Source of the DNA: a virus
Virus record (IMG/VR): IMGVR_UViG_3300029264_000290
Coordinates: 1-23,805 of that record
Reading direction: 5' to 3' (one strand)
DNA length: 23,805 nt
Each line of letters begins with the position of its first letter. Within the stretch, counting starts at the first letter, position 1. Positions 2,267-23,805 of the stretch are shown one piece after another. A program made the position numbers and the translations under genes. The notes below the pieces were generated by a model. That model was not told where the DNA came from. It made no database searches and worked only from the letters and a program-made list of their open reading frames with translations.

Positions 2267-2267
2267 T

Positions 2268-2963: not shown

Positions 2964-2978
2964 TATTTAAAATAGTAT

Positions 2979-3033
2979 GTAAGGAACGGTATGAACCGCG
3001 AGGGAGTTTAGATTCTAAACTCTCTTCCCTTAC
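2979..3033 (+). promoter_or_regulatory. Structured intergenic RNA, possible three-way junction or attenuator
   Basis: Complementary arms suggest a compact fold between the Sak4-like gene and the gene at 3093. The outer stem pairs GTAAGG (2979-2984) with CCTTAC (3028-3033). Inside are hairpin one, CGGT (2987-2990) with ACCG (2995-2998) and loop ATGA, and hairpin two, GAGTTTAG (3004-3011) with CTAAACTC (3015-3022) and a three-base loop. There is no T tract immediately downstream, so it is not a classic intrinsic terminator. It could mark an RNA processing site, an attenuator or a binding site for a regulator. The pairing is seen directly; the function is inferred. Confidence 0.5.
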
Positions 3034-3092
3034 ACTTATCACAGACATAAAAACAAACAAACAAAAATTACAAATTTAAAAACACAAAAATT

Positions 3093-3806: not shown

Positions 3807-3845
3807 TATTAAGAAAATTAAAATTTAGAATTTAAACAAAACAGG

Positions 3846-3875
3846 TTAAGGGACACACCTTAAGTGTCCCATTAA
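3846..3875 (+). promoter_or_regulatory. Strong hairpin with an alternative pairing, upstream of the 3890 gene
   Basis: GGGACAC (3850-3856) pairs perfectly with GTGTCCC (3864-3870) around a seven-base loop, and TTAA (3846-3849) can extend it with TTAA (3872-3875) past a single-base bulge. A competing hairpin is also possible: TTAAGG (3846-3851) with CCTTAA (3858-3863). No T tract follows, so this is more likely an attenuator, processing site or protective 5' structure than a terminator. Confidence 0.5.
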
Positions 3876-3889
3876 ATTAAAATTATATT

Positions 3890-4816: not shown

Positions 4817-4840
4817 TAATCTTAATTAACTAAAACTTAT

Positions 4841-4870
4841 AGAGGGCTATCATTTGATGGTCCTCTTTTT
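4841..4870 (+). terminator. Intrinsic terminator after the candidate SSB gene
   Basis: AGAGGGCTATCA (4841-4852) can pair with TGATGGTCCTCT (4855-4866), including two G-U pairs, around a tiny T-rich loop, and five T residues follow (4866-4870). This is a standard rho-independent terminator shape. It would separate the candidate SSB transcript from the primase gene. Confidence 0.75.
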
Positions 4871-4893
4871 ATTTAACTTAATACACAGATAAT

Positions 4894-5946: not shown

Positions 5947-5985
5947 CTTAAAAAAAAATAATGTAACATTTTAAATAATTAAATC

Positions 5986-8483: not shown

Positions 8484-8503
8484 TTTAAAAAAAGAACAAT
8501 AAA

Positions 8504-8836
8504 ATGGCTCTAAAAGAAAGAGAAATGGGAAGGTTTGCTAACAAATTTTGCAAAGTTGTTGAAAAATTAATAACTCTTCAAGACTTAGGATTTGTAGAAG
8601 ATGGTTACCATAGATGGAACTATGTTATTTATCAATCTGAATGTGGTAATTTTTGTAAATCAATTATTGGTTCTGGAGATTATTTGTATCTTAGAGATCA
8701 GTTAGGAGACAAATATACTGATGTATCTTTGTGTGTTTTATGGAATAGAGATATTGCTGGTCCAATTAAGAAGAAAGAAATTGAAAATTTTATTAACATA
8801 TTAAAACAAGGAAATGTTAGACAGAAAAAGAGCTAA
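8504..8836 (+). CDS. Unrecognised small protein, 110 aa
   Basis: I do not recognise this 110-residue protein. It starts with a helical, charged segment (about 1-25), then has an aromatic-rich region (YHRWNYVIYQSE near 35-46) and ends in a basic tail. It contains four cysteines, but they do not form a clear zinc-binding pattern. It lies 20 bases after the VWA gene and overlaps the start of the resolvase frame by 23 bases if the longer start of that gene is used. No function can be given. Confidence 0.65.
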   Translation: MALKEREMGRFANKFCKVVEKLITLQDLGFVEDGYHRWNYVIYQSECGNFCKSIIGSGDYLYLRDQLGDKYTDVSLCVLWNRDIAGPIKKKEIENFINILKQGNVRQKKS

Positions 8837-9314
8837 ACCCGTGGATATGATATTTATTCCCGGAAACATTCCTTCATTAAAGAACAGTAAGGTAAAGACG
8901 AGTAGAGGAATCTTCTCGTCACCTACTGTTTCTAAATTTCTTAGATCAATAGGTATACAAGGATTTAACTCTCGTAAAAAGACAGTTAAGGGATATGTAG
9001 ATCCATTAAGACCTAATCAATTTGAGGCTTTAAGATCAAGATTTTTGAGCATGAAGGCAGGTAAAGATGATCCATTAATAATAGGATATCATCAAGTGAG
9101 AAATAGCAAAAGGCTATTTGATTTCAGCAACAGCGTTGAGATTATACAGGATTTAATGACAGCACATGATTTCATCGAAGATGATAATGTGAAGCATGTA
9201 TTTCCCGTACCAATGAGTATAAAAGGAGAATTAATCAATCCAGATAATCCAAGAGCATTCCCACTATATAGTGTGGATAAAAATGCTGCTGGTGTATGGA
9301 TAAAATTATTTTAA
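8814..9314 (+). CDS. RusA-like Holliday junction resolvase
   Basis: The 166-residue frame resembles RusA-type endonucleases, which cut four-way DNA junctions. An N-terminal FIPGNIPSLKNSK (14-26) matches the substrate-binding start of the family. The acidic cluster FDFSNSVEIIQDLM (102-115) followed by FIEDDNVKHV (120-129) matches the metal-binding region; Asp103, Asp113, Asp123 and Asp124 are the likely ligands, with Lys127 nearby. The usual DxDN is changed here to DFSN. Two starts are possible: ATG at 8814 overlaps the previous gene by 23 bases, and ATG at 8847 avoids overlap and begins just before the conserved region. I slightly prefer 8847, but the longer frame is reported. Its role would be resolving replication or recombination intermediates before packaging. 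Confidence 0.7.
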   Translation: MLDRKRAKPVDMIFIPGNIPSLKNSKVKTSRGIFSSPTVSKFLRSIGIQGFNSRKKTVKGYVDPLRPNQFEALRSRFLSMKAGKDDPLIIGYHQVRNSKRLFDFSNSVEIIQDLMTAHDFIEDDNVKHVFPVPMSIKGELINPDNPRAFPLYSVDKNAAGVWIKLF

Positions 9315-9347
9315 TATGATAAATAAAATAATTAAATTAAGTTTATA

Positions 9348-9509
9348 ATGAAAAAAAAAGCAAAAAAAGTAATGGCTAGATTAAGCTTTACGGATATTAT
9401 TGTCCCTATTGAAGATGCTGGTAAAATATTTTATAATTCAGATGCATTAGTAGTAAATTACGAAGATGAAGATGGAGAAGAATGTGATGAAGATGGAGAA
9501 TATGATTAA
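9348..9509 (+). CDS. Small lysine-rich/acidic protein, 53 aa
   Basis: A 53-residue frame starting at ATG 9348, after the A/T-rich leader typical of this block. The N-terminus is strongly basic (six Lys in the first seven residues). The middle (about 12-37) could form a small beta unit, and the last 17 residues are almost all Glu, Asp, Gly and Tyr. It fills the gap between the resolvase and the nuclease gene, and its codon choice looks like its neighbours. I do not recognise a family. The split charge suggests binding to nucleic acid or to a partner protein, but this is a guess. Confidence 0.5.
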   Translation: MKKKAKKVMARLSFTDIIVPIEDAGKIFYNSDALVVNYEDEDGEECDEDGEYD

Positions 9510-9541
9510 TAACAATTAAATTTAAAACAAAAAAATAATAT

Positions 9542-10645
9542 ATGGCAATACAAGATCATAATCTTAAAATCCCTGAACAACAGTATAGGGATTTACCGCT
9601 ACCATCTTATTCAATGCTTGCTAGTATAGATAAGCAAGGATTAGATGTCGTAGGGGGTGTCAAACAAAGCTTCAATTTAAAATTCGGAAGCCTTGTTGAC
9701 ATGATGTGTTTTGAGCCTCATTTAGTAGATGATAATTTCTACAAAGGAGGAGCTTCAAAACCACCAACAACAAATGTTAAAAATATTTGTGATTTAGTTT
9801 TACAAGGACTCAAAGGTAGAGCAGGTCAAACTGTTGAAATTGTAACTGATTTGGGGAGAAGGAAATCAAGAAAGTTATCCAATAATCTCGAAAACTATAA
9901 AGCAGATTTTGTTGCTCACGCTAGAGCATTGAAAGTTTATGCTAATTACTCTGAAGATAAGCTAATAAGCACAGTTCTTGATGGTGGCTCTGTCACGGGA
10001 AGAGAGTATTTTAAAGACAAAATGTCTTCAAGAGGCAAGAATCTTATCAAGCCTGAAATGTGGGCTCACGCAGCTCACACAGCCAATACCCTAATTACAC
10101 ATCCATTTACAGCTAAATACTTTACTACTGGCGTAAAAGGTATTGAAATCATCTATCAATATAAATTTGATACCATGGTTAACGGCAGAAGGTGTAAAGG
10201 AATGCTTGATTGTCTGGTTATTAACCATCTCGCTAAAGTAATTATTCCAGTAGATTTAAAAACAGGAGAATCAGCCTGTAAAGACTTTCCAATGCTATAT
10301 ACCATGCATAGATATTACATTCAAGGTGCATTGTACAGGGAAGCCTTAAAGACTATTTGTTCTAATGATTTTGAATTAATGAATTATGCCGTTAAGCCAT
10401 TTGAATTTGTGTACATATCTAAGTTAAATCCAAATAAACCCTTAAGGTTTGTTGTTGCAGAAGACATGCATCAATTAGCTTTACATGGATTTACTGATAG
10501 ATATGGTTATGAATACAAAGGTGTTCATGAGCTTATGGAGGATTACTATTATAGTATTGAAAACAATAAAGCAGAATATTCTTTAGAAGAGGTGAATAAT
10601 AAGGGTCTTGTTAATATGAACGCTTTATCAATACTAGGTAAATGA
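9542..10645 (+). CDS. PD-(D/E)XK superfamily nuclease
   Basis: A 367-residue protein with the active-site layout of Cas4/RecB-like PD-(D/E)XK nucleases. An FGSLVDMM segment (48-55) fits the first conserved helix. Glu202 lies in the strand GIEIIYQ. Asp223 lies in KGMLDCLVI, and the core DLK (Asp238, Lys240) lies in IPVDLKTG. The helix RYYIQGALYREAL (257-269) gives the usual Tyr and Gln after the core. The middle region (about 70-190) is an insertion that I cannot assign. Such phage enzymes act as exonucleases in recombination and host DNA breakdown, and related genes are common in crAss-like phages. It ends in an ATGA overlap with the next gene, which may be its partner. Confidence 0.75.
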   Translation: MAIQDHNLKIPEQQYRDLPLPSYSMLASIDKQGLDVVGGVKQSFNLKFGSLVDMMCFEPHLVDDNFYKGGASKPPTTNVKNICDLVLQGLKGRAGQTVEIVTDLGRRKSRKLSNNLENYKADFVAHARALKVYANYSEDKLISTVLDGGSVTGREYFKDKMSSRGKNLIKPEMWAHAAHTANTLITHPFTAKYFTTGVKGIEIIYQYKFDTMVNGRRCKGMLDCLVINHLAKVIIPVDLKTGESACKDFPMLYTMHRYYIQGALYREALKTICSNDFELMNYAVKPFEFVYISKLNPNKPLRFVVAEDMHQLALHGFTDRYGYEYKGVHELMEDYYYSIENNKAEYSLEEVNNKGLVNMNALSILGK

Positions 10646-11148
10646 ATCAAGGATATAAGATAACAATAGTCAAAAACAAGAGCACAACTTACTTGTTACC
10701 ATTAATTGCTAAACAAATAGATTTTGATGACAAATATAAATTATTAAATTCTTATCTGTCTTTTGAAGAAGGAGATGATGTGTTTTCTGTTATTTACAAG
10801 TGGAGTAGTAGCCCTGAATACCTTAAGTTTGAAGGAAAATTAATGAAAAATCATTTATTTATTGGACATCAAGATTACGGTAACCATACTGTTTATAAAT
10901 TTAGATTATCAATAGCGATGAAAGCTGGTAGAGATAAGTTTATCAAAGGTAACATTAAAGGATTTTCCGACGATCATAAAGAAGCTGTAATAGAATATTT
11001 AAAAAAGATAAATGCAAAGAACATTGAGAGAATCAAGCTAATGCTGACTCCTGGTTCACAATTGTATTCTACTGCTCCAGATATGGAAAAAGAAACATTA
11101 GTTAATTCCGTAAAGGAAATTAAATTAGAATCAGATACCTTTCAATAG
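10642..11148 (+). CDS. Unrecognised protein, 168 aa, coupled to the nuclease
   Basis: I do not recognise this 168-residue protein. The first 100 residues look beta-rich (for example KITIVKNKS at 6-14 and LFIGHQDYGNHTVYKFRLS at about 71-89), then there is a basic helical segment (about 100-140) and a polar tail. The start overlaps the nuclease stop in ATGA, so the two are translated together and may act as partners. It is the last gene before an intrinsic terminator, which closes this transcript. No catalytic motif is visible. Confidence 0.65.
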   Translation: MNQGYKITIVKNKSTTYLLPLIAKQIDFDDKYKLLNSYLSFEEGDDVFSVIYKWSSSPEYLKFEGKLMKNHLFIGHQDYGNHTVYKFRLSIAMKAGRDKFIKGNIKGFSDDHKEAVIEYLKKINAKNIERIKLMLTPGSQLYSTAPDMEKETLVNSVKEIKLESDTFQ

Positions 11149-11157
11149 GTGTTAAGT

Positions 11158-11192
11158 AGAGGGGTGTAAGTTCGCAAGAAGCCCCTCTTTTT
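11158..11192 (+). terminator. Intrinsic terminator
   Basis: AGAGGGG (11158-11164) pairs perfectly with CCCCTCT (11182-11188), and a run of five T residues (11188-11192) follows. The 17-base loop can itself form a short TTC/GAA hairpin closed by a GCAA tetraloop, which is a stable GNRA type. This is the clearest rho-independent terminator on the plus strand, and it ends the nuclease transcript. Confidence 0.85.
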
Positions 11193-11212
11193 ATTAATTA
11201 AAAAAGAATATA

Positions 11213-11329
11213 ATGATATATTTAAAATTACTCCTAATTGGAGCATGTATTGGTGCGGGAGCTGAAATATCAACGGCAATAATGTCATTAACATTTAAAA
11301 TCATAAAAAAATGGAAAAGAAATTCATAG
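11213..11329 (+). CDS. Predicted small membrane protein, 38 aa
   Basis: A 38-residue frame whose first two-thirds form one likely membrane helix (residues about 3-28, including LLLIGACIGAGAE), followed by a basic end (KIIKKWKRNS). The positive tail after the helix suggests the C-terminus stays in the cytoplasm. It starts right after the terminator, with an A-rich leader suited to this phage. Small single-helix proteins of this kind in phages can affect lysis, superinfection exclusion or host membrane enzymes; which applies here is unknown. Confidence 0.5.
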   Translation: MIYLKLLLIGACIGAGAEISTAIMSLTFKIIKKWKRNS

Positions 11330-11361
11330 ACATACATGGTAAAACTAAAGAAATAGAGTAA
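11311..11361 (+). CDS. Possible 16-aa leader peptide
   Basis: A very short frame (MEKKFIDIHGKTKEIE) that begins inside the end of the membrane-protein gene and ends in TAATG, sharing its last base with the next start. The overlap on both sides and the preceding A-rich stretch would suit translational coupling. At this length chance cannot be excluded, so this is a weak call. Confidence 0.25.
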   Translation: MEKKFIDIHGKTKEIE

Positions 11362-11702
11362 TGGCAGTTTCTAAAGACTACATAGGTCAACCAATTATAA
11401 TTGGTGACTGGTGTGCCATAACACAGAATAATCGTATTCATGTTGGTGTGGTAGTTAGTATAAGCAAATCAGGAGCCCCAACAATAACTAGAAATAGTGT
11501 TGAAGAGTTTGCATTTAATAGTAAGGAGTGGAGAAAGTTAAATAATAATTGGAAAACCAATCATTTAGCAAGAGAGCTTATTATTAATAAGTTTCCAAAT
11601 ACGGCAGTTAGTCCATTTATAAATTTATTGTCTTATTGTAGAGATCTTAAATTTGTAAGAATAATTCCGTCATCAGAGATGATCATAAAGTATGACATCT
11701 AA
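11361..11702 (+). CDS. Unrecognised small protein, 113 aa
   Basis: I do not recognise this 113-residue protein. The first half (about 8-50) looks like a small beta barrel (QPIIIGDWCAIT, then IHVGVVVSISKS), reminiscent of SH3- or Tudor-like folds, and the second half is helical. Phage genes of this size with a small barrel often bind proteins or nucleic acid, but there is no motif to settle it. The start is in TAATG with the possible leader peptide before it. The first of a run of three to five small genes that reaches the end of the plus-strand block. Confidence 0.6.
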   Translation: MAVSKDYIGQPIIIGDWCAITQNNRIHVGVVVSISKSGAPTITRNSVEEFAFNSKEWRKLNNNWKTNHLARELIINKFPNTAVSPFINLLSYCRDLKFVRIIPSSEMIIKYDI

Positions 11703-11721
11703 ACTTTAAAAAACAAAAAAA

Positions 11722-12207
11722 ATGATATTAAAAAGAAAGACAGTACGATTAGCTAAAATTGGTGAAATCGGTGTCATAAAGCCATCTATTATAGAGGCAA
11801 TGAAATCCACCGAGTATTATTCTAAACATTCGGTGGTTGCAAATATTGGTGATAAAACTATCGAAAAAAGAATGTTAAGTTCTAATTTAAAAAAAGCTAA
11901 TAGTAAAGTATTATTAGCTGATGCTGAATTAGTTTATATATTAAAAAGCCCTATTTTTGACGGGTTATTGGAAGTTGTGCCATTATGTTTTAATAATGAC
12001 GCTTTTACTGCATTAGCAGTTCAGCGTGTTTTTTACGGCAAAAAAAATACATTTTATATACCTGAAGGCTCGATACAATCAATTTCTTCAGAAGGTATCA
12101 CTAATGTAATTAGTCGTTATGGAGACGTAGCACAATCTTTGATTTCAAGGCTTATGAAAGAGGAATATTTCTTTAATCAACCAAATTTCTCATGGGTAAA
12201 CAACTAG
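11722..12207 (+). CDS. Unrecognised protein, 161 aa
   Basis: A 161-residue protein of unknown family. It has a basic N-terminus (MILKRKTVRLAK), a probable mixed alpha/beta body and a C-terminal helix, ending in an aromatic-rich tail. Its leader is an almost pure A run without a Shine-Dalgarno sequence. No catalytic, membrane or zinc motif is visible. It overlaps by 16 bases a short frame starting at 12192. Confidence 0.6.
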   Translation: MILKRKTVRLAKIGEIGVIKPSIIEAMKSTEYYSKHSVVANIGDKTIEKRMLSSNLKKANSKVLLADAELVYILKSPIFDGLLEVVPLCFNNDAFTALAVQRVFYGKKNTFYIPEGSIQSISSEGITNVISRYGDVAQSLISRLMKEEYFFNQPNFSWVNN

Positions 12208-12305
12208 ATTTATACGAAGTAATTAAAGACTGTGAAGATGAAGAAAATAATAAGCTTAACGCAAAAGAAACTATTAGAATCAGAGAAGAAGAAAGATGTA
12301 AATAG
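12192..12305 (+). CDS. Possible small acidic protein, 37 aa
   Basis: A 37-residue frame beginning inside the end of the preceding gene. It is hydrophilic and helical (DLYEVIKDCEDEENN at residues 5-19, then a charged segment ending EEERCK). It conflicts over 74 bases with the GTG-initiated frame at 12232; if that gene instead starts at ATG 12334 the conflict vanishes and the two would lie 28 bases apart. I cannot decide which reading is right from composition alone. Confidence 0.4.
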   Translation: MGKQLDLYEVIKDCEDEENNKLNAKETIRIREEERCK

Positions 12306-12552
12306 AAGATTCTTTAACAGAAACATAGAAGCCATGAGGTTTTGTAATAACAATGGGTTTACCATATATGCAACAGCACAAGCAGGCAGTATTTCTATGG
12401 TTAAGATATTTAAACAAAAAGGGGAGAAATTCCTCCCCTTAACTGAAACTTTGTTTGATCAAAGTAAACCAGAAGATGTTGAAAATTATATTGCTCTAAT
12501 TGATATAGAGTATGAGAGAATATACAATAAGATGAAAAACAAAGTATTATGA
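12232..12552 (+). CDS. Unrecognised small protein, 106 aa (start uncertain)
   Basis: The frame opens with GTG at 12232, with ATG alternatives at 12238 and 12334. The N-terminal 34 residues are very basic and of doubtful coding status; from Met35 (12334) the protein looks folded, with strands such as GFTIYATAQAG and SMVKIFKQ and a C-terminal helix (about 80-103). The shorter version would have 72 residues. The stop overlaps the next start in ATGA, so the gene's end is well supported. The family is not recognised. Confidence 0.55.
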   Translation: MKMKKIISLTQKKLLESEKKKDVNRRFFNRNIEAMRFCNNNGFTIYATAQAGSISMVKIFKQKGEKFLPLTETLFDQSKPEDVENYIALIDIEYERIYNKMKNKVL

Positions 12553-12737
12553 AAAAAAATGATATAAAAGTACAGTTATATTTGAAAGACTGGAGCAAGG
12601 TGCCTTTTGCTTTTGAGTATCCACAATATATTGCATACGTCTACAAAAAAACAAAAAGTGGTCATGTAATAATGATATACGAAACCCACGCATCACCAAT
12701 AGTAGCCAAAAATAGGCTTTTAGTACTACTGGGATAA
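12549..12737 (+). CDS. Unrecognised small protein, 62 aa
   Basis: A 62-residue protein starting in ATGA with the previous stop. It looks like a small beta-rich domain with many aromatic residues (FAFEYPQYIAYVYKK at about 18-32). It is the last gene of the plus-strand block, 42 bases before the convergent terminator. No function can be given; the overlap supports that it is translated. Confidence 0.55.
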   Translation: MKKNDIKVQLYLKDWSKVPFAFEYPQYIAYVYKKTKSGHVIMIYETHASPIVAKNRLLVLLG

Positions 12738-12779
12738 AGAAATTAATTTGTGATTTAATTAATGTGTTTAACAAGAAAG

Positions 12780-12807
12780 CCCGATAAAAAGTGATTGTTT
12801 TATCGGG
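12780..12807. terminator. Bidirectional terminator between converging blocks
   Basis: CCCGATAAAA (12780-12789) and TTTTATCGGG (12798-12807) form a perfect ten-base-pair hairpin with an eight-base loop. On the plus strand it is followed by a T-rich stretch (TATTTCTATT); on the minus strand by CTTTCTTGTT. It lies between the ends of the plus-strand small genes and the minus-strand giant-protein gene, so it can stop transcription from both sides. The rest of 12738-12858 holds no gene that I can see. Confidence 0.8.
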
Positions 12808-12858
12808 TATTTCTATTGATTCCTAAGTGGATGCTTTTTTTTACTTAACTTGAACAGA

Positions 12859-15800
12859 TTAATGAAATCCTGCAGCAGACTCTATGTAATCTAAAGATCC
12901 TTGTAGATCCTTTTGAGTTTGTGATAGACCCGGAAGTGTTTTCAGGGCTTTTACTTCAAATTTATTTCTACCTATATTACTACCATTCTCATACTCCTCA
13001 GTAATATCTCCAGCTTGGTATATTGCAGAAATAATATTTTTTAACGTACCTGAAGATGCTGTTGGTGACATAACAATCTTCATTGCTTCACCTGGCTGTA
13101 CAAAGAAAAGTAATTCAGACATTTGTCTTCTTAAAGCATATCGTATTAATAGAGTTTCATCATCATCATCATCCATTGCCGCGTAAGCTAACATAGTTGC
13201 GGCAATCATCATTAATTCTGCTGTAATCTTTTTAAAATTAGCTTTTTCATGACCTGATAAATCACTAGTACCTTTTTTTATCATCTCCATGTTTAGAGTT
13301 TTGATAGCAGGAACTAAAACTTTAGACATGAATCTCCAAGCAGTAATATAATACCCTTCTCTAATACCTTTTGCGTCTTGAGAATAAAATTGGTCAGCTC
13401 TAGTTAAGTCTTTACGACTCTTACTTCCAGTCTTAATACCTCTCCATCTACGGAAATAACCTTCTTCAATCCATTTACGTAAGAAGAAAGCTAATTTACC
13501 AATAAAGTTACGTTGAGCTGCAGCTTGTAGATCTGAATCATAATTACCGTGTAATTCGCGTACTTTGTATTTAATTAGATTCCTTGTTTCAAGCATTATC
13601 TGATTCCTGTCACCAGTTTTTGAAAATGTAGTTGCGGAAACCTTTTCATTTAATCTCATTTCTACCCCTCCCGTTATCTTGTTAGGTACAAATTCTATCA
13701 TTTCATTAATAGATGCAGCTTGCTTTTTATCAGCAACTACATTCCCGTCTTTATCTAAATACTTTCCTTCAGAATTAAGTACTTTAATGTGATTCATTGT
13801 AGCGTACATTACGTGAGATTGCATCATGTGTTCGCCACCTTTTGCAATTGGACGTAAATTATTCATTTTCATTAAAGCTTGACCTCTAGTACTTTCTTCA
13901 AATGGGTTATCAAGATATTCTTTACCTCCCATTACGTTAAACGCACTAAGAAACATGTTGGTCCTAGATTTGTCCACATTTGTTCCCATGTCATTCATTA
14001 CGTTACCCATATCTTTTAGGTAAATGTACTCAGCTTTCATTAAATCTTTATTGTTAAAATGCTCACCTCCAAATGCCTCTATCCTGTTATTGATACGAGC
14101 CATACTTGCGTTCACAATACTGTTAGGTAAATTAAATAACAAAGCAGTCATACCTGAAAACTTTAACCAAGTTTTAGTAAGTTGATTTATATCTTTTTCC
14201 TTACCTAATACTTTAATAGTACCAGCATCTACACTTTTTATGTCGTACATTCTACTTACAAGTACATCTAAAGCTCTTGCCGCGTCATTAGATAATCCAT
14301 TTCTTGGATCTTTATAAAGTGCAACTTCATCTTTTCCTTCTGGAGTCATGTGTATTTTGCGTAATTTTCCCATATTTGCGGTATCTGGAACTTTTCTAGT
14401 TTTCATTACCTCTAATATAATCTTGAATGTAAGCTCAGCCTCTTTCTTTTTAGCATAGTTTTCTGACGCAACAGCATTCATTAGTGTTATTGTGTGCAAA
14501 TCAAAAGATTGTTCATTAGATTTAATCTTTTTCCTAAACGGAATAGCAACACTTAACTTTTCTTGATTAGCAACATCTGCGTAAACTCTTTTAAAAGAAT
14601 CAGACAAACCTGAATCAGTAGCATCTTGAGTTTCAAAATCATCTTTTTGCTTTTGACTAATTTCAGAAAGTTTTTGCTTGGCAGCGCTAACAAAATTACC
14701 TTCAAGAACTCTCTGTGTATCAGTTTTTAATATTCCTGGCAGTCTTATCCATTCTTGACTAAATGACTGAGAAACTAAAGAGTTATGTCCTTTTGTCTTC
14801 TCATCACCTTTTTTAATTTTATCTTTTAACCACGTAAGATGATCTTTTTTCTTTTCAGATAAAGAATTGTAATCTTCATTAATCCACTTCTTTTCAGGTA
14901 AAACACTTGGTTCATTTCTTCCATCGACTTCAACCGTAGTAGTGTTAGCATCAATCCATACCTCATATTCAGATCTTGCAATAGCTTGAGATGTAGGCAT
15001 GTGTACTCTTTCTCCTTGCAACTCGTATGATATTTGAACAGAATTACCATCACTATCTGTCTCGACTCTGTATTTAATACCTTTACCAAATCTAAGTAGT
15101 CTTCTATGAGTCTTGCCATCTTCATCTTGTATCTCATAATTTAAAGCTTTTCCCGTAACCTTTATGTCTCCATAAACTTCATCTGCAGCTTCTCTATCGA
15201 ATGATCTTTTAATATACTTATCTTTCTCTTCTAAGAACTCCGGCATGTACTGTGAGGCATAATATGACTGTCCTGAAGCTGATACAGAAATCATACCTTC
15301 GTACTTGTTTTTTTGGTTTAAAGAATTAGTGTCTTTATCTGAAGAATCACTAAGATCTCTAAAGTTTTTGTTGTCAAAATCAAACTCTCTAGCTTCATTA
15401 AGTGCAAATTCAGATATTGCTCTTTCTACTTTATCAACCAATGTTGAAAGCACCTGTATATCTGCAGAATTTGCATTCTTTTCTGACCACATCACGGCAG
15501 CCATCTTGCTTATATCAGAAATAGATTCTTCAGCATTCTTAAGTGCCTCTCTATATCCTTCATCTTTAATTATATCTTTGTATTCTAGAAGTTTCTCCAT
15601 AACATATTGATCCACACTAACTCCTGATGCTGATAATTCAAGATCATTGTATTCTTTCTCAAACTTAGTAGTATACTCAAATGTTAATCTATTGTTATTC
15701 TCTGACATATACTCAGCGTAGCTTTCTCGAGCATAATTTAGTAGCTTAATTTCTAAATCAGATCTATTACCCTGTATCTTTTTTATTTTTGCTGAAAATA

Positions 15801-16932
15801 ATTTAGCTTCTGCAGGAGTAATTTCACCATCATCTTCAAGACTCATTACTAATGACTGAATATCATTAATAGTGCTAAAACTTTGATTCCACTCAATACT
15901 AGCTAAAACTTTTTTGTCACTAAGTTCATTTAATGCTTTCTTCTTGTCGTAATTAATTCTTACTTGATCAACTTCTCCTCCTACCCATTCAATATATTTA
16001 GCAAGACCTAGTTTTCTGTCAGCTTTATCAAGCTTCTCTAACTCTTTCTTTAGCTCAGAAATAGACTCAAATCTAGTTGTTCTATCCTCGCTACTTAAAG
16101 CTTCTTTAATTTTTTTCTGAACAGTGTCGGGTCTGTACTCATTATGTACATTATTTACTCTCGCTAATACCTCATTATAAATACGCTGCAAAGACTGTAC
16201 TGATGTGGATTCATCAGTAGAACTCTTAGTTTCTTTTTCGCCCCGTAACTCTTGGGACTCAATACTAGCATTGGCCATTAAATTATTCTTTCTAACAGAA
16301 TTATTTAATAGTTCTTTTGTTAACTCAGTTACTTCATCTCTATTTAAACCTAAAGATCTTTGAATAAAGCTAAAAAACCAACTTTTAATAGAAGCCCATG
16401 TTGATGCATCGCTAGGATTATCCCATATTTCTGCACCTTTTCTACCTATTGCCGTTGTAATAAGTTCTTTTGCAAACATCTCTTCACTTAGATCTGGATA
16501 CAAAGCTTTTATCTCAGCTTCCAATTCAGTACCTTGGAGTTGCTCTAAAGCTCTCTTTAGTCTAGGATTTTCAATTCCATTGGGGAAGGAATCAATAAAA
16601 ATATGTCCGAACTCATGGATTGCAGTTGTCGAGAATAATTGCTTAGGATTAATTAATATTACAGGCTTACCTGCTTTTTTAACTCTAGGATCACCTTTAC
16701 CAAGTACCCTAGAACTATTTACCGTTGAATCCATGATTACTTCTACATTCATAGATTCCTGAAGTCTCTTGACTTTGGCTTTGAATACACTTAATTCTTC
16801 TATTGTATAATTTCCTGAAGGTCTTTCTTCTTGAACACCATACTTTTCTCTAATTGCAGAATCATTAGACAGAACTTTAATAAGTCCTGCCTCTGAATAA
16901 TCCTTGCCTTTGTAATTAAATTTACAGCTCAT
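12859..16932 (-). CDS. Giant virion protein with N-terminal zinc-protease motif, 1,357 aa
   Basis: This huge protein lies directly downstream of the virion RNA polymerase gene, with a 12-base gap, as in crAss-like phages where such proteins are carried in the virion and enter the cell with the DNA. Near the N-terminus is TTAIHEFGHIFID, with HEFGH at residues 106-110 and a candidate third ligand Glu156 in FAKELI; this is a gluzincin-like metalloprotease signature. Residues about 200-700 are mostly charged helices and coiled coils. Towards the end there is a hydrophobic segment (about 1236-1252, ending LAYAA) followed by five Asp, and further amphipathic helices, possibly for membrane contact. 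Residues 1-20 (CKFNYKGKDYSEAG) look like a small leading domain. A role in processing virion proteins or opening the host envelope is inferred. Confidence 0.75.
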   Translation of the reverse strand: MSCKFNYKGKDYSEAGLIKVLSNDSAIREKYGVQEERPSGNYTIEELSVFKAKVKRLQESMNVEVIMDSTVNSSRVLGKGDPRVKKAGKPVILINPKQLFSTTAIHEFGHIFIDSFPNGIENPRLKRALEQLQGTELEAEIKALYPDLSEEMFAKELITTAIGRKGAEIWDNPSDASTWASIKSWFFSFIQRSLGLNRDEVTELTKELLNNSVRKNNLMANASIESQELRGEKETKSSTDESTSVQSLQRIYNEVLARVNNVHNEYRPDTVQKKIKEALSSEDRTTRFESISELKKELEKLDKADRKLGLAKYIEWVGGEVDQVRINYDKKKALNELSDKKVLASIEWNQSFSTINDIQSLVMSLEDDGEITPAEAKLFSAKIKKIQGNRSDLEIKLLNYARESYAEYMSENNNRLTFEYTTKFEKEYNDLELSASGVSVDQYVMEKLLEYKDIIKDEGYREALKNAEESISDISKMAAVMWSEKNANSADIQVLSTLVDKVERAISEFALNEAREFDFDNKNFRDLSDSSDKDTNSLNQKNKYEGMISVSASGQSYYASQYMPEFLEEKDKYIKRSFDREAADEVYGDIKVTGKALNYEIQDEDGKTHRRLLRFGKGIKYRVETDSDGNSVQISYELQGERVHMPTSQAIARSEYEVWIDANTTTVEVDGRNEPSVLPEKKWINEDYNSLSEKKKDHLTWLKDKIKKGDEKTKGHNSLVSQSFSQEWIRLPGILKTDTQRVLEGNFVSAAKQKLSEISQKQKDDFETQDATDSGLSDSFKRVYADVANQEKLSVAIPFRKKIKSNEQSFDLHTITLMNAVASENYAKKKEAELTFKIILEVMKTRKVPDTANMGKLRKIHMTPEGKDEVALYKDPRNGLSNDAARALDVLVSRMYDIKSVDAGTIKVLGKEKDINQLTKTWLKFSGMTALLFNLPNSIVNASMARINNRIEAFGGEHFNNKDLMKAEYIYLKDMGNVMNDMGTNVDKSRTNMFLSAFNVMGGKEYLDNPFEESTRGQALMKMNNLRPIAKGGEHMMQSHVMYATMNHIKVLNSEGKYLDKDGNVVADKKQAASINEMIEFVPNKITGGVEMRLNEKVSATTFSKTGDRNQIMLETRNLIKYKVRELHGNYDSDLQAAAQRNFIGKLAFFLRKWIEEGYFRRWRGIKTGSKSRKDLTRADQFYSQDAKGIREGYYITAWRFMSKVLVPAIKTLNMEMIKKGTSDLSGHEKANFKKITAELMMIAATMLAYAAMDDDDDETLLIRYALRRQMSELLFFVQPGEAMKIVMSPTASSGTLKNIISAIYQAGDITEEYENGSNIGRNKFEVKALKTLPGLSQTQKDLQGSLDYIESAAGFH

Positions 16933-16944
16933 TGTAATTTGTTT

Positions 16945-19900
16945 TTATTGCTTACCTGAAGGGCAATCTTTTTTAGTTATATTTTCTTCTTTGATAATAT
17001 TTTTCAACATGTCTGGGGTAATTTCAAATGATGGACCATCATACTCTTCTTCCTCAATATCAGAAATTTCATCCTCTGCATTTTCAATGTCTGAAAGAGT
17101 ATCTGGTAATTCCTGAGAATCATCAATAAACATCTCATTAGCTTTTAATTCTTTTCTAATTTTATTAATAGCCATAAGCTCAGCACCATTAAGATTATTA
17201 TCTTCTAATATAGAGCTTTCTATTTTCTTTTCATAAGAATATTCAAAAACTTTATTTTTACCTGCTTTAAGCCCAAGTCTAAATGTTCTTTCGTATGCTG
17301 GTAAATAATCATTATCAGCATCTTCTGTGAAGCTTTCTGATTTTTTAAAGAAACCAATTGTATCGTCATCAAGTTTAACTGTAACAAATTCAGGTGTATC
17401 TGGATAAGCAACACCCATTTTAAACTTTTGGTATTTATCAAGAAGTTTTTTAGTTCCAATAAATCCATAATGCATATCAGATCCTTCTGATATAGGCTCT
17501 ATGTCTGAGTCATTTAATCTAGGTACAACTTCAGTATTATTAGACTCATGTCTAGCGAATTGATCAAAGAAAACACTCCCAGGAATATCATCTATTCTTT
17601 GAAAAAATGAATTAGTTTCCGCGTTTATACCTTCATCTCTCAATATTTCATGAGGAATGTGAGTAAAAAATTGGTTTAAATTCTGTTGAAATCCTGATTG
17701 AGTATAAGAATATCTTACCAAATTAACGGCTAAATTTTTAGTTTTTTCATTCTTATAAAGATCTATCCAAGCTCTGTATATATCGTTTTGATATTCAGCA
17801 GGCTTGTCTTTACCATTAATTCCAATGAAATCAAATCCATTGACCATATTAATTTCTAATTCCTGAATAAGGAAATTAGGCTTATAGATTTTTTTATTAT
17901 CCGCTAATGCTTTAAGTCTTTGACTTTCTCTTAACTCAGAAACTTGTTTTGGTATTTTTTCAAATAGCTTTTCAAAGTTACTTCTATTCTTTTTTAGTAA
18001 CTCAGTTCTTGACATCAAGTAAGTATAAACACCTTTATCTACTGCTGCTCCAAGTTTTTTTGAAACAATATACTCTTCTTTAGTCATCATGTTAGACGCG
18101 TGATCCATAACATCTTGCATTGCACTAGTTGCTGATAACATTATATTGCTACTAGTCAATACTGAATTTGTGAAATCTAAAGCTTTAGCTTTGTATGTTC
18201 CTAACGCTGTACCATCGTATTTAGACATGTAGTTATTTACGAACCCAACATGCTCAACTTTGTTAATTTTATTAGAAGCTATATGCATTTCTATTGGAGA
18301 TCCACCAGCACCTCTTGTGTCAATCTTAGCAGAAAGCAAAGCGTCAGTCCATTGAGCTGATTTCTTTTCGTGAAATTCAAATGCATTTAATACCACGGAG
18401 TCTACAAAAGTTTTTCTAACTCCTTTTACACTTTGTTCCATGTCGCTTTTTGAAATTGTTCTTAGTTTTTTTTGAGATCCTTCAATATTTTTTATATCGT
18501 ATTTATTTCTAAGATATTCATAAGGATTTACATACTTAACTTTACCATCAACAACTATGGTTAATGGAGTTCCAGTAATACTGTCTACTCTTTTCTTTAA
18601 AGCAACAAGTTCTTTTAATATTGGTTGACCAATATATCTATTTATATCTTCCATAGAGCCACCTGCTCTAATAAGCATGAATGTAACATTAGCTGTAACA
18701 TCATTGTGGTTTCCTCTTGTAATGTATGGATCTTTTGCTATATCAACATACGCGTTCAAAAATGCTGACAATGTTGATACTACACTATGCTTGTTGCCGT
18801 TAGGCACATCCATTTTTGTAATGCTCTTATTCTTTCCTACTTTTATTGCTTCTCCAAATCCTAAGTCGCTATTAACTGATATTTCTAAAGATTGATTAGC
18901 TACGTGATCAACTAATTGATTAGCAGTTAATGCAACACCCATTTTACCAGACATGTAATTCATCTTAGTTTTTAACTGCGTAATAGGTGAGAATAAATCT
19001 AAATTCTTATCTTTTGGCTTAGGGTGCAAGTTTTCGATATCTTCTTTAAGAAATAATCCATCAATAGAAGTCATCATGTTATCATAAGTATGATCACTCT
19101 GAAGTACATCTGAATAAAGCTTTAATACGTTATTTTGAGCAATTAGTTTATCCGCTTTAGCTTTTTGCTTACTTGGAAGAAACTTCTTATTCTCATCACT
19201 AATCATTTCAAATTCCTTAGACTTTTTATTATACATAAGGTTTGGTGCCATTATGTACATCTTATCAATATCAAAATCTGATCCTGTCTTAGCTGGAATA
19301 CCATCGTATCCTATGATACTATCACCCATTGTAGAAGGTAATACTGCAACTATTTCAAGTGTATCATTTGATGACATACCTTGATTAGGTATTCTGTATC
19401 CAACAAGCTCTCTTACTTTAGGATCCTTGAATGCTTTCTTCCAATCTGCTGGAGTCATAGTATTTACATCTACACCTGCATCTCTACCTGCATCTCTAAG
19501 TAATTTAACAGCTAAAGTATGAGGTATCATTACTTGACCTGGAAGAGTCTGACCATCTGGCCCTTGCGTTGGAGGTTGTAATCCTTTACCATCATAGTTG
19601 TCTGAGATTATTTTAATACTAGAATCTTCTAGATCAGCCTTAAGCTTCTTTATAGCAACATTATCTTCCTTGCTTAAAGGATCTACACCTTGAGTATATA
19701 GCTCTGCTTTTTCTTTACCATACTTACCTACTAAGTAATCATACTCAGCGTCAAGTAGGTCAGATTCACTGACACCAACTTCCTCTAATCCAAATGGTGA
19801 TACTTGAATAAACGAGCCACCTTCAGTAGCAATTTTAGTCATGGCTCTGTTAAATACAGACATTAAGATGCTGTCAATTCTACCTTTAATCTGTGGTATT

Positions 19901-22900
19901 GCATCAATAGGAGTTCCTTTTTCAAGTGCTGTAATAATATTCTCATTAGCACCTCTTGATCTAAATTCTGCAATTAATACATCATAAATTGGATCCTTGT
20001 CAGTAATCTTGTTATCGACAATTCCTAATTTAGCAGAAACCTCATCAGCACCTATCTCAATTAATTTAGAAATTGCATCATGGATTCGTTGTAGTAACTC
20101 TGAACCATCTATCTTGTCTACTTCTCCCGATACTTTGTACTTTAAATCTAGTTTTAGATCTTCAAGAATATTTTTTTGTATTTGAGATCCTAAATTAGTT
20201 TCATGCATTGTCTTGATAGGAAGATCTTGTTGAAGCTTCCATCCCCTATTAGACAAAGTATTTGTATTTAGTTTAAAATTAGGATCCATATCAGTTGTAC
20301 CCTCTTTATTAATCCTAGTTGGTGCAATAGCTCCTACTTTGACTCCATCAATAGTAATTACCTCATGAACTTCATCAGAAGCTTTTTTTATGTAATTTCC
20401 ATCTCTGTCGTGAGTCATTCTTTTTAACAACTTTGCCATTGGAGTATTTTTTACCATGCTTGGAATAAGCACAGCTTGAGAGTACTTTAAGTATGTTGGA
20501 ATACCTTTGTTTATTTCAAAGTAAACACCTTTAAGTGGTTGGGCTGCAAGTTTCATTTCAGAATCTTTTAACTGATTTCCATTTTGCATCTTCTTAAATA
20601 CCTCTGCATGAGCGTCACTCCATTGACCTAATCTCTGTTTAATGAATTTCCATCTACGAGGAGTAATCCATGCTTGAGCATCAGTAGTGTTTACGTCACT
20701 AGTTCCTTTCTTTTTCTTGCCGTTCTTATCGTATCTAGCTCCGTAAGCATCAGCAATAGACTTATCAGTCAAAGAGTCTCTTATTTGTTGAAGATACTTA
20801 GAAGCAACCTCAACGCCCTCAACAACTGCAACATTGAATTTCATGTCATCAGCAGAATCTAAAGCTAATTGTAATCCATCAGTATATGTTGCTGGTATTC
20901 TTTTAATTAAATCCGCGTTATTTTTAAAGTAAGCTGGATCTCCAGAAAATAGCTTTGTATATTCAATAGAAGAAACAAGTCCATTAACTAAATAATCACC
21001 CGCAATAGCTGCTAATCCACCTTCATCTTTGTAATGAGCAATTAATTTGCTATTCATTTGAGATGTTTTAGAAAGCTCTTTAACTTCTTTATAAGTATCA
21101 TTTAATCTTTCTTTTAATGATGCTTCAACAGCTAATCTTACTTCATTCCTTTGACTATCACTGAATCCGTGCACACCATTGGAAGACAATGGCATATTAG
21201 TTTTAGGATCATATAGAATAGCTTTTAATGAATCTGAAGCTGTATCAAAACTAAATTCGGGAAAAAGTTGTGATTTTAATCCATTCTTTGCTCCAATATG
21301 ATAGTGTTGAACTTTTTTATGTTCCGGAAGAGTTTCTATATCATTGGCAACATCTTTCATTCTGTTGTATTCAGATTCAAAATACTTTACAAAAATATCA
21401 ACAGTTCTTTGCGGTATTAATAATTTTCCTTTCGAATCTTTATCACCAGATATTAAAGAATCTACAAATTCAAATCCTTTGAACTCTACTCTTCTTGATT
21501 TATCTGCAGCAATAATTGTAGGAAAGTACGAAGTCTGACCTATTTTTTTACCTAGTAATTTTGTTATATTATCATTTAATTGATCAGCTAATGAAATACT
21601 TACATTATCAACACCATCATCTTTACCTTTAGAAGTAAATGAACTGGCCAATCCATGCTCAAATGCATCTAGTCTTTCTTGAGATCTTTTTAATCTCTCT
21701 TTTTTGTTGTGCTCACTTTGTTCTTGCCCAAATACATCGCGAGTTTTGTAGCCAAGCAAATACTTTATCCACCTGGAACTACCATTTATTGGATCAGAAG
21801 CTAATGCCTCAAGCCCACTTAAATCTTTTTTCCATTCAGAAATTTTATTCGATATGAATGTAGGGTTTGCATACGCAAAGTAAGTCTTACCTCCAGACGC
21901 AAGTATGCTAGATTCTGCAATATCTAACTCCCTCATTGCAGATGCCTTAGCTAACATTTTAACCATAGACTGAGTTCTGAAAGGATTTAGAAACGCACCA
22001 TCTTTAATGAAGGGTTTACCTGCACCTTTTTTGTCAACTGCAGTTATATCTCCATTGATCATGTGTCCAATACCAACAAATAAATCTTTAATTGTGTTAA
22101 ATTCATTTTCAGTACCTCCACCTAGCATTATAAGAGCATTGATATCAGAATCCATTAATCCAAATACACCTAAGTTTCTTAACTGCTGGAATAATTTAGG
22201 AACAATCTCCTCATAAACTTCATTCTCTAAGCTCCTATCTCCATTGGCTTGGCCAATACCTTCTCTGAATTTTGTGTATAATACTGAAACTGCAGTTCCT
22301 ATGAAATTTATTTCTTTTAAATTTTCAATAGAAAGATTAGCTTGTCCCCCTCCTAACCATTTTCCTCTAAATCTGTATCCCCATCTGTCAAGTATCTGAC
22401 TTTCTCTACTATTTGTTGCAGTAGCATTTATAACTGTATATGCTGAAGAATCTTGATTGAACTCAGTAACATAAAAATTTACGTTAGTTTTATTAAATGC
22501 TTGTACAAATTCATATACTTTAAATCTACCAACACCATTGTCATTGTTCATTGTATCTAACTTCTCCGCAAGATCATAAGCCCAAGGTTTAACAGTCTTT
22601 AATTTTTCAATAACCTCCCTCATTTGCTTATACGTAGAAACCACTCCTCCTTCAGTACCGCCGGTTGTAACTATATCTGACAATAAAGGTTGTAGTGTTT
22701 GCCAAACTTGATTGAAATCTTCAAATACAGGTGTTTTTAAAAAACCTGATCTTTTTATTTTTAATACTTGATTTGAACTGTTTGGATCTGATGATTTTAC
22801 TAATCTCTTAGAAACTAATTGAGATAAGAATATTTTAGTGTTTATTGTGGCAGATTCTTTTGCATTCACAGTAATAGATTCAATCATGTTTAATCCACCA

Positions 22901-23568
22901 CCTTTCTCTTCTTCTTTTACTTCTCCCTTAACATTTCCCTCTGCATCAATAATTTTTTCTTGGTAGTTTTGGCCTAATGCAGCTAACTTAAAAACAAGTT
23001 CATCTTTGAACTCATGCTTGTATAACTCAACAAGTTCAATTCTTTTTGTACCAATTTTAGCTTTTTCTTTAGGTAAGGTTGATAACTGTTGCTTGTAACT
23101 TTCAATTGATCTTTCTATGCTAGATAATAAAGCTCTCTTTGATTTGTCTTTAGCATCTCCATCATTGAATGCCTGAGGGCCTCCTTCTTTATCGAATCTG
23201 TATAAGAAATGTTTAGATACATCTTTAATTTCTTGAGGCGAGAAAGCATCTCTAAGCGGCGTTAAAGAGTTGACAGGAATCTTAGTCCCATCAACATCTT
23301 TAAAGTACCACTTGTTAGAGTTTTTTTTGTTGTATAATTTTGGCTCACCTTTATCAGTGACTTCTCCAATTTTTGCTAATAAACCATTAGCATCTCTGAT
23401 ACCTTTATAGTTTTTTTTCCAATCACCGAAAACTTTTCCAAAATCATTACCCAAAACCTTACTATACAGTAAGTCCGCTTTGTGCTGATCATTGAAAATT
23501 TCTAGTAATTGAGCGTGTAGTACGGATTTTTCCCCAGCTACCTCGTTCATTACGTTGCAAACTTCCAT
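16945..23568 (-). CDS. Virion-packaged single-chain RNA polymerase, phi14:2 gp66-like, 2,207 aa
   Basis: The protein matches the crAss-like virion RNA polymerase in size (phi14:2 gp66 is about 2,180 residues) and motifs. The catalytic loop GSDFDIDKMYI has the three metal-binding Asp at 1431, 1433 and 1435, behind a conserved YRIPNQGMSS block. The second double-psi barrel region has GVKVGAIAP with Lys1077, then LPIKTMHE with Lys1119 and GSQIQKNI with Lys1132, like the lysines of the beta-type barrel. After the catalytic loop, VDIAKDPYI and IGQPILKEL are also family blocks. This is related to two-barrel polymerases such as eukaryotic RNA-dependent enzymes of the QDE-1 kind. In phi14:2 the enzyme is injected with the genome and transcribes early genes. 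The last 80 residues are very acidic and end KDCPSGKQ. The ATG at 23568 follows a stop by 17 bases; Met7 is another possible start. Confidence 0.9.
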   Translation of the reverse strand: MEVCNVMNEVAGEKSVLHAQLLEIFNDQHKADLLYSKVLGNDFGKVFGDWKKNYKGIRDANGLLAKIGEVTDKGEPKLYNKKNSNKWYFKDVDGTKIPVNSLTPLRDAFSPQEIKDVSKHFLYRFDKEGGPQAFNDGDAKDKSKRALLSSIERSIESYKQQLSTLPKEKAKIGTKRIELVELYKHEFKDELVFKLAALGQNYQEKIIDAEGNVKGEVKEEEKGGGLNMIESITVNAKESATINTKIFLSQLVSKRLVKSSDPNSSNQVLKIKRSGFLKTPVFEDFNQVWQTLQPLLSDIVTTGGTEGGVVSTYKQMREVIEKLKTVKPWAYDLAEKLDTMNNDNGVGRFKVYEFVQAFNKTNVNFYVTEFNQDSSAYTVINATATNSRESQILDRWGYRFRGKWLGGGQANLSIENLKEINFIGTAVSVLYTKFREGIGQANGDRSLENEVYEEIVPKLFQQLRNLGVFGLMDSDINALIMLGGGTENEFNTIKDLFVGIGHMINGDITAVDKKGAGKPFIKDGAFLNPFRTQSMVKMLAKASAMRELDIAESSILASGGKTYFAYANPTFISNKISEWKKDLSGLEALASDPINGSSRWIKYLLGYKTRDVFGQEQSEHNKKERLKRSQERLDAFEHGLASSFTSKGKDDGVDNVSISLADQLNDNITKLLGKKIGQTSYFPTIIAADKSRRVEFKGFEFVDSLISGDKDSKGKLLIPQRTVDIFVKYFESEYNRMKDVANDIETLPEHKKVQHYHIGAKNGLKSQLFPEFSFDTASDSLKAILYDPKTNMPLSSNGVHGFSDSQRNEVRLAVEASLKERLNDTYKEVKELSKTSQMNSKLIAHYKDEGGLAAIAGDYLVNGLVSSIEYTKLFSGDPAYFKNNADLIKRIPATYTDGLQLALDSADDMKFNVAVVEGVEVASKYLQQIRDSLTDKSIADAYGARYDKNGKKKKGTSDVNTTDAQAWITPRRWKFIKQRLGQWSDAHAEVFKKMQNGNQLKDSEMKLAAQPLKGVYFEINKGIPTYLKYSQAVLIPSMVKNTPMAKLLKRMTHDRDGNYIKKASDEVHEVITIDGVKVGAIAPTRINKEGTTDMDPNFKLNTNTLSNRGWKLQQDLPIKTMHETNLGSQIQKNILEDLKLDLKYKVSGEVDKIDGSELLQRIHDAISKLIEIGADEVSAKLGIVDNKITDKDPIYDVLIAEFRSRGANENIITALEKGTPIDAIPQIKGRIDSILMSVFNRAMTKIATEGGSFIQVSPFGLEEVGVSESDLLDAEYDYLVGKYGKEKAELYTQGVDPLSKEDNVAIKKLKADLEDSSIKIISDNYDGKGLQPPTQGPDGQTLPGQVMIPHTLAVKLLRDAGRDAGVDVNTMTPADWKKAFKDPKVRELVGYRIPNQGMSSNDTLEIVAVLPSTMGDSIIGYDGIPAKTGSDFDIDKMYIMAPNLMYNKKSKEFEMISDENKKFLPSKQKAKADKLIAQNNVLKLYSDVLQSDHTYDNMMTSIDGLFLKEDIENLHPKPKDKNLDLFSPITQLKTKMNYMSGKMGVALTANQLVDHVANQSLEISVNSDLGFGEAIKVGKNKSITKMDVPNGNKHSVVSTLSAFLNAYVDIAKDPYITRGNHNDVTANVTFMLIRAGGSMEDINRYIGQPILKELVALKKRVDSITGTPLTIVVDGKVKYVNPYEYLRNKYDIKNIEGSQKKLRTISKSDMEQSVKGVRKTFVDSVVLNAFEFHEKKSAQWTDALLSAKIDTRGAGGSPIEMHIASNKINKVEHVGFVNNYMSKYDGTALGTYKAKALDFTNSVLTSSNIMLSATSAMQDVMDHASNMMTKEEYIVSKKLGAAVDKGVYTYLMSRTELLKKNRSNFEKLFEKIPKQVSELRESQRLKALADNKKIYKPNFLIQELEINMVNGFDFIGINGKDKPAEYQNDIYRAWIDLYKNEKTKNLAVNLVRYSYTQSGFQQNLNQFFTHIPHEILRDEGINAETNSFFQRIDDIPGSVFFDQFARHESNNTEVVPRLNDSDIEPISEGSDMHYGFIGTKKLLDKYQKFKMGVAYPDTPEFVTVKLDDDTIGFFKKSESFTEDADNDYLPAYERTFRLGLKAGKNKVFEYSYEKKIESSILEDNNLNGAELMAINKIRKELKANEMFIDDSQELPDTLSDIENAEDEISDIEEEEYDGPSFEITPDMLKNIIKEENITKKDCPSGKQ

Positions 23569-23585: not shown

Positions 23586-23805
23586 TTAATTGTTTTTACA
23601 TGGATTTTCCTGTTGTCCAGAATCCATGTTTGTTAAATCTTTATTCATTTCAAAATCTGAATCACCCATCTCAACATCTCCCCATTCGTCATCAATATCC
23701 TCAGTCAGACTAGACTTAAATACTAGTTGATTTGAGCTAAGTATTGTTTCAATAGGCTTCGAAGGTACTGATTTATTTTTAGGTTTACTAATTTGAGTGT
23801 CACTA
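23586..23805 (-). CDS. C-terminus of another virion protein, cut by the window edge
   Basis: The frame is open to the right edge and ends at TAA 23586-23588, giving the last 72 residues of a larger protein. This tail is polar and acidic (DIDDEWGDVEMGDSD at about residues 36-50) and ends ENPCKNN. It lies 17 bases upstream of the polymerase gene on the same strand, so it is co-transcribed with it. In crAss-like phages a further giant virion protein usually occupies this place. The fragment alone shows no domain, so its identity rests on position and the acidic tail shared with the polymerase. Confidence 0.7.
   Translation of the reverse strand, partial: SDTQISKPKNKSVPSKPIETILSSNQLVFKSSLTEDIDDEWGDVEMGDSDFEMNKDLTNMDSGQQENPCKNN

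Follow-up and report, generated by a model that had tools for sequence, protein, structure and literature searches.

Terminal cysteines of the virion RNA polymerase and its neighbours

The 23,805-nucleotide viral DNA stretch treated here in its entirety (the window; positions 1 to 23,805 of IMG/VR record IMGVR_UViG_3300029264_000290) codes on its minus strand for a crAss-like virion RNA polymerase (RNAP), homologous to gp66 of phage phi14:2, flanked by a g065-type protein downstream and by the end of a putative virion protein upstream. The RNAP has two cysteines in 2,207 amino acids (aa), at residues 4 and 2202, and each of them faces a lone cysteine at the adjoining end of the neighbouring protein. 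Judging from the distribution of such cysteines among related phages, we consider it probable that the RNAP belongs to a thiol-linked, probably disulfide-linked, head-to-tail train of ejected proteins, which would be released in the reducing cytoplasm of the host. The polymerase family was already known; the terminal-cysteine joints were unexpected, having been overlooked in the initial annotation of the window. The features concerned are the following:

16945–23568, minus strand: crAss-like virion RNA polymerase, catalytic chain (phi14:2 gp66 homologue), 2,207 aa (sequence and predicted fold)
12859–16932, minus strand: RNAP-associated protein, 1,357 aa, phi14:2 g065 homologue (26% identity, 1,297 alignment columns, E = 1e-102)
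23586–23804, minus strand: last 72 aa of an upstream virion protein, presumably g067-like, truncated by the end of the contig
23557–23559, minus strand: Cys4, joint cysteine at the N-terminus of the RNAP, which has just two cysteines
16963–16965, minus strand: Cys2202 of the RNAP, C-terminal joint cysteine, the other of the two
16924–16926, minus strand: Cys3, at the N-terminus of the g065-like protein, which has no other cysteine (from sequence)
23598–23600, minus strand: sole cysteine in the tail of the upstream protein, fourth from last (NPCKNN; from sequence)

The upstream chain of the window ends in PCKNN, the RNAP starts with MEVC and ends in KDCPSGKQ, and the g065-like protein starts with MSC and ends in AAGFH; both joints are Cys-paired, and the outer end of the g065-like protein is without cysteine. 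The N-terminus of the upstream protein lies outside the contig. A BLAST search with its 72-aa tail gave no assignment to g067, and it is on account of its terminal cysteine and its position only that we regard it as g067-like. In phi14:2, g067 contains a single cysteine (the last residue), gp66 contains two (residues 3 and 2179) and g065 one (residue 3); in crAss001, gp47 and gp49 each contain one (residue 2339 of 2341, and residue 5, respectively) and gp50 three (residues 5, 1334 and 2404). In relatives, a cysteine directly follows the start methionine of the RNAP and of the g065-like protein, and in almost all of them the RNAP and the upstream protein have one near their C-termini. Small or charged residues surround the terminal cysteines, which gives these ends the look of flexible tails. 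Full-text literature searches, which covered sources other than the phi14:2 structure paper, yielded no account of terminal cysteines on crassvirus cargo; a review and the crAss001 genome paper mention neither cysteine nor disulfide (PMC10136315, PMC8375218), and the available part of the crAss001 structure paper mentions disulfides solely for tail and portal-vertex proteins (PMC10172136).

The joint-cysteine rule among crAss-like loci

The sample comprised 80 further IMG/VR loci (designated by L-numbers), which yielded 59 RNAP clusters at 80% identity; a cysteine was defined as terminal if located within the first or last 8 aa. Where a separate g067-like gene is present, the g067–RNAP joint has cysteines on both sides in 37 of 38 clusters, as compared to neither side in all nine clusters in which this joint is fused or another gene lies upstream. 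The RNAP–g065 joint has cysteines on both sides in 52 of 55 clusters, the exceptions being two wrong automatic starts (likely true start MSC or MVC) and one broken RNAP open reading frame (ORF). The outer ends are devoid of cysteine (g067 N-terminus, 0/36; g065 C-terminus, 0/53), with a background of 2/53 and 2/80 for other large ORFs of the same loci, and just two of 170 other adjacent same-strand gene pairs from these loci, phi14:2 and crAss001 show cysteines on both sides. Among 50 complete RNAPs, 47 have as many terminal cysteines as joints. At the joints examined, the rule is kept in Steigviridae (crAss001, DAC15, phi14:2), Intestiviridae (Rudgehvirus), Suoliviridae (cr1, cr52, cr109, cr114, cr118, cr130), and Flavobacterium phage FPSV-S29. 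A genome-wide habit of terminal cysteines was rejected as an explanation, the frequency of Cys-ending proteins being near chance across the genomes of phi14:2 and crAss001. Because the RNAP clusters share descent, the counts are non-independent draws, and the tracking of splits and fusions described below carries more weight. There is very little doubt that the joint-cysteine rule, as read from these sequences, is robust.

The interiors of the three proteins are poor in cysteine, with 0.04 (g067-like), 0.22 (g065-like) and 0.5 (RNAP) internal cysteines per 1,000 residues, compared to 1.6 in other ORFs. Big virion proteins outside the set are not Cys-poor (phi14:2 g071, six; crAss001 gp44, ten; DAC15 gp081, twelve).

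Splits, fusions and insertions

In a tree of 68 RNAPs, the upstream joint changes between the fused and the split state at least seven times, and the N-terminal cysteine of the RNAP follows the split state (48/49 split vs 0/12 fused); the one split case without it, L017, results from a miscalled start (MEEISIFAEKRKKNMASC). When the RNAP is fused to the g065-like protein (L045, L046, L055, and the distant Rudgehvirus), the fused joint lacks cysteines and the other joint keeps them, and the all-fused protein of L019 has no cysteine in 5,636 aa. At L091:14572-18075, an extra 1,168-aa protein encoded between RNAP and g065-like protein carries cysteines at both ends and is apparently a fourth car in the train. 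RNAP genes with intron-like breaks (L011, L088, L092, L097, L116) show no cysteine at the break, but cysteines at the true ends. At the level of sequence, the cysteines mark joints rather than proteins.

The g067-type gene is located on the opposite strand in crAss001 (gp47, ending in RCNS) and in DAC15 (gp078, ending in KECLE); the rule is nevertheless kept, the RNAPs facing these partners starting with MSKRC and MSKTC, respectively. In ten clusters in which the g065-like gene is 356–6,169 nucleotides (nt) away from the RNAP gene, its product still starts with a cysteine. Since opposite-strand and distant partners keep the rule, its cause is to be sought at the protein rather than the DNA level. 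The same partners exclude stop/start overlap as the cause of the terminal cysteines. The codons of paired cysteines are identical in 44 of 52 cases, which is the value predicted by the marginal TGT frequencies.

A proposed thiol-linked ejection train

In the proposed mechanism, the RNAP would take the central place in a cargo train of three proteins, in the order g067-like protein, RNAP, g065-like protein. Separate neighbours would be coupled through the lone cysteine that ends the upstream chain and the lone cysteine that begins the downstream chain, the two facing residues forming a disulfide or an equivalent thiol link; at a fused joint, the peptide bond would do the same job and cysteines are absent. 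The giant proteins would then be packaged, and would pass down the tail, joined in a fixed order into a single strand that would come apart in the reducing cytoplasm and free the polymerase. Because outer ends and fused joints are without cysteine, the pattern argues for pairwise linkage of neighbours and not for a packaging signal. According to the available part of the crAss001 structure paper, the cargo of this phage must pass constrictions of <50 Å, for which partial unfolding is thought to occur, and disulfides are present in the tail hubs and the portal vertex protein (PMC10172136). We incline slightly towards the wider proposal that a disulfide-hooked ejection train of fixed order, uncoupled by reduction in the host cytoplasm, is common to Crassvirales, with gene fusion and cysteine pairs being interchangeable; we know of no described precedent for a redox-released train of this kind.

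Several points weigh against this proposal. The bond itself, like its timing and its role in ejection, is inferred from sequence. Bacteroides hosts are anaerobic and their cytoplasm is reducing, so that the thiols would have to be oxidised within the assembled particle, following release, or by an enzyme, and no oxidase was identified. Internal cysteines are present in the RNAPs of L017, L024 and L025 (12–21 cysteines) and of DAC15 (five), and L112, L113 and L077 are unexplained exceptions. Gp50–52 of phage N4 and gp15/gp16 of phage T7 are Cys-free, so a low internal cysteine content alone is unspecific.

The RNAP ORFs of L112 and L113 end without cysteine and are followed by other large ORFs, possibly reflecting splits, frameshifts or introns. 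N4 gp50 (L128; T7 is L127) spans 3,500 aa without a single cysteine. Ejected virion proteins may avoid cysteine in general, and the joint pairs would then be an addition made in Crassvirales.

Among the alternatives, the one that fares best, although we regard it as unlikely, is an ordinary crAss-like virion RNAP whose terminal cysteines let consecutive subunits recognise one another through non-covalent docking or metal binding, with no disulfide being formed. The joint rule would suit any pairwise Cys-dependent contact, and tails of small or charged residues would be compatible with docking; however, there is usually one cysteine per end, and a four-ligand zinc site needs more ligands. The strongly Cys-poor interiors are moreover expected of a design that avoids disulfide scrambling, and disulfides do form in crAss001 particles (PMC10172136). 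That the cysteines serve as a packaging or targeting signal, recognised by a scaffold, portal or ejection protein, is distinctly improbable: they are located on known or inferred virion cargo, as such a signal would be, but it is joints and not proteins that are marked, the outer ends being free of cysteine (0/36 and 0/53), and all-fused cargo such as the 5,636-aa protein of L019 has none.

We give hardly any credence to a nucleotide-level cause, i.e., coupling of translation at the stop/start junction or a ribosomal bypass from one Cys codon to the matching one, sometimes with fused products; most RNAP–g065 junctions are ≤30 nt long and many read TGT...TGT, but ten joints are 356–6,169 nt apart, the partner is on the opposite strand in crAss001 and DAC15, codon identity (44/52) is not in excess, and both cysteines occur in just 2/170 other pairs. 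Covalent ligation of the proteins into a true single chain through their cysteines (native chemical ligation or trans-splicing-like chemistry) would match the natural single-chain versions fused at the same joints, but is highly improbable, because the N-terminal cysteine is usually residue 3–5 and not residue 1 after Met removal, and a reducing gel of crAss001 showed gp47, gp49 and gp50 as individual subunits of high mass (PMC6235969).

The most abundant phages of the human gut have podovirus-like particles that must push proteins of 150–280 kDa, in the right order, through a channel narrower than about 50 Å. For these proteins the cysteine rule predicts the cargo order g067/gp47, RNAP, g065/gp49, and it provides a signature by which cargo proteins without annotation could be recognised and put in order in crassviruses from metagenomes. 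The thiol-linked train, if true, suggests that contact with the reducing cytoplasm sets the polymerase free.

Identity and predicted fold of the RNA polymerase

19264–19278, minus strand: DFDID catalytic loop, residues 1431–1435 (invariant in 22/22 relatives)
19378–19395, minus strand: RIPNQG block, residues 1392–1397 (RIP part invariant in the 22 aligned relatives)
20338–20340, minus strand: K1077 (invariant in the same alignment)
20212–20214, minus strand: K1119 (K, H or R across the 22 relatives)
20173–20175, minus strand: K1132 (K, R, N or I across the 22 relatives)

The RNAP ORF (16945–23568) has an ATG start and 2,207 codons with zero internal stops, and falls on the reversed-GC-skew side of the window. 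A phmmer search retrieved chain A of PDB 6VR4, the crAss-like polymerase phi14:2 gp66, as the one strong PDB relative (E = 1.8e-207). In a tblastn search against annotated phages, phi14:2 ranked top (29.5% identity over 91%), followed by gut crassviruses, and the phylogenetic tree puts the window protein beside phi14:2 (weak fork, 82/64), inside the starred clades. Pfam and PHROGs searches did not recognise the RNAP, which was matched only by the 6VR4 sequence and relatives.

The initial annotation had described a single-chain virion RNAP resembling phi14:2 gp66, with Asp1431/1433/1435 of the DFDID loop and the RIPNQG block in one 2,207-residue chain. These positions are correct, one chain carrying the DFDxD catalytic motif plus an upstream GYR(I/V)P block, and sequence, predicted core and synteny with g065-g066-g067 agree in supporting the assignment. 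Its three conserved lysines (K1077, K1119, K1132) are indeed lysines and align with lysines 1065, 1106 and 1119 of gp66, as does DFDID with gp66 residues 1361–1365; however, K1119 and K1132 vary within the family, and K1077 alone of the three is invariant. Further invariant lysines among the 22 relatives are K889, K1013, K1245 and K1436. An ORF of about 220 aa (MKTKFNKESR..) breaks the RNAP gene in an intron-like manner at or near the DFDID codons in L011, L088, L089, L092, L097 and L116.

An AlphaFold model of RNAP residues 850–1780, computed from 21 sequences of the window and IMG/VR (pLDDT 76, pTM 0.75), had 6vr4_A as its best PDB match (E = 1.9e-48, TM-score 0.75 over the query). Arabidopsis RDR2 followed as a weak second match (E = 9e-4, TM-score 0.23), and bacterial beta' chains ranked third with non-significant scores; matches in BFVD were crAss-like RNAPs that carry misleading names ('DNA helicase', for example). 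This agreement with gp66, which is a superposition of the whole core and not of individual barrels, supports the prediction that the RNAP is one polypeptide with both double-psi barrels. Altogether, the window RNAP is almost certainly a further member of the known gp66 family, and the enzyme itself is ordinary.

No recognised structural block (major capsid protein, TerL, portal) is present in the window or its 31.7-kb parent contig. The presumed virion location of the RNAP follows from its homologues: phi14:2 g065, g066 and g067 carry annotation from tandem mass spectrometry of virions, and crAss001 gp47, gp49 and gp50 were detected in virions (PMC10172136, PMC6235969). By homology with phi14:2, for which this has been shown, we infer that the capsid contains the RNAP, that the enzyme leaves the particle together with the DNA, and that it transcribes early phage genes.

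Neighbouring genes and transcription signals

16603–16617, minus strand: HEFGH, residues 106–110 of the g065-like protein, candidate metallopeptidase domain
1–12737, plus strand: convergent replication/nucleotide block, possible early targets (from gene content)
12779–12808, no strand assigned: inverted repeat that separates the convergent blocks and has a T-rich flank on either strand, likely a terminator acting in both directions

As in phi14:2, the RNAP gene forms an operon with the g065-type gene, convergent to a replication block. The HExxH motif of the g065-like protein and a distal glutamate, E168, are invariant in eight g065-like N-terminal regions (window positions 16429–16617, residues 106–168); the model of this region is poor (pLDDT 53), with no significant fold match. 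Phi14:2 g065 also has a HEIMH motif, and some fused RNAP ORFs bear HExxH in an N-terminal extension. From these motifs, a metallopeptidase-like domain may travel with the ejected polymerases.

The plus-strand block contains, as in phi14:2, genes for a dATP/dGTP pyrophosphohydrolase, a phosphoheptose-isomerase-family protein, a Sak4-like protein and a primase, as well as AAA ATPase, HNH-like, RusA-like and exonuclease VIII-like genes. Strong hairpins with T runs in the plus strand at 4841–4866 and about 11160–11190 lie within this block and suggest that internal terminators divide it into several transcription units. The window is contained in a longer IMG/VR contig of 31.7 kb, which reaches ligase-like, RecA-like helicase-like and SNF2-like genes (assigned by eye from translations). 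In this parent contig (L028:708-1869), two plus-strand genes upstream of the window appear by eye to code for secreted or lipoprotein-like products (MKKSILAITLLLSTLSFAQ.., ..LLLLVLAISTTFTSCQKD..).

That the plus-strand block is the target of early transcription, as proposed in the initial annotation, is plausible but contested. In phi14:2, the early genes, subject to rifampicin-resistant transcription by the virion RNAP, comprise the regulatory and replication modules (PMC10136315, a review), but the replication genes of crAss001 were termed 'middle', with host RNAP suggested as transcriber (PMC8375218). The Bacteroidetes -7 motif TANNTTTG occurs 43 times, as compared to 35.8 expected, i.e., at chance level; the full TTTG-N17-22-TANNTTTG promoter is absent, and sigma-70-like sites are at chance level. 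A Gibbs search of eight upstream regions, which has little power, found no motif better than in shuffled sequences, and searches of the window for tRNAs and Rfam families found none.

Comparison with known systems

The closest known system is the virion RNA polymerase gp66 of phi14:2 (PDB 6VR4), reportedly described by Drobysheva et al. in 2021. The window protein shares with it near end-to-end homology, the catalytic loop, a g065-type gene downstream, a convergent replication block, and the possession of exactly two cysteines (residues 3 and 2179 in gp66). It differs in sequence (29.5% identity), is longer before RIPNQG, and nearly lacks the about 80 gp66 residues that follow the catalytic loop (1402–1484).

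CrAss001 has the same set of proteins with joint cysteines: gp47 ends in RCNS, gp50 starts with MSKRC and ends in KICGANTLYEL, and gp49 starts with MAKKC (PMC10172136, PMC8375218). The structure paper, for which a reduced and a non-reduced sample of crAss001 were analysed, gives masses of 262.5, 276.9 and 154.5 kDa for the three proteins (PMC10172136). Differences are the location of gp47 on the opposite strand, and the DFDVD motif and one extra internal cysteine of gp50. DFDVD lies in gp50 (L029:3103-10341), and gp49 (10344-14393) is the g065-type partner, unlike in the genome paper, which names gp49 as the predicted catalytic subunit (PMC8375218).

Phage N4 likewise has a giant ejected RNAP, gp50, with an HExxH domain in its C-terminal region (PMC12633501), and gp50 and the ejection proteins gp51/gp52 are Cys-free; but gp50 is of a different, single-subunit type, a single 3,500-aa chain without terminal cysteine joints. 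In P23-45, gp96 is a virion-packaged two-barrel RNAP fused to another large virion protein (PMC10770324); this enzyme has a clamp-less fold and belongs to another lineage, and its fusion partner is the tape measure protein. The eukaryotic RNA-interference polymerases QDE-1 and RDR2 are cellular enzymes without a cargo train, RDR2 matching the modelled core only weakly (E = 9e-4, TM-score 0.23), but share with the crAss-like RNAP the two-barrel single-chain fold.

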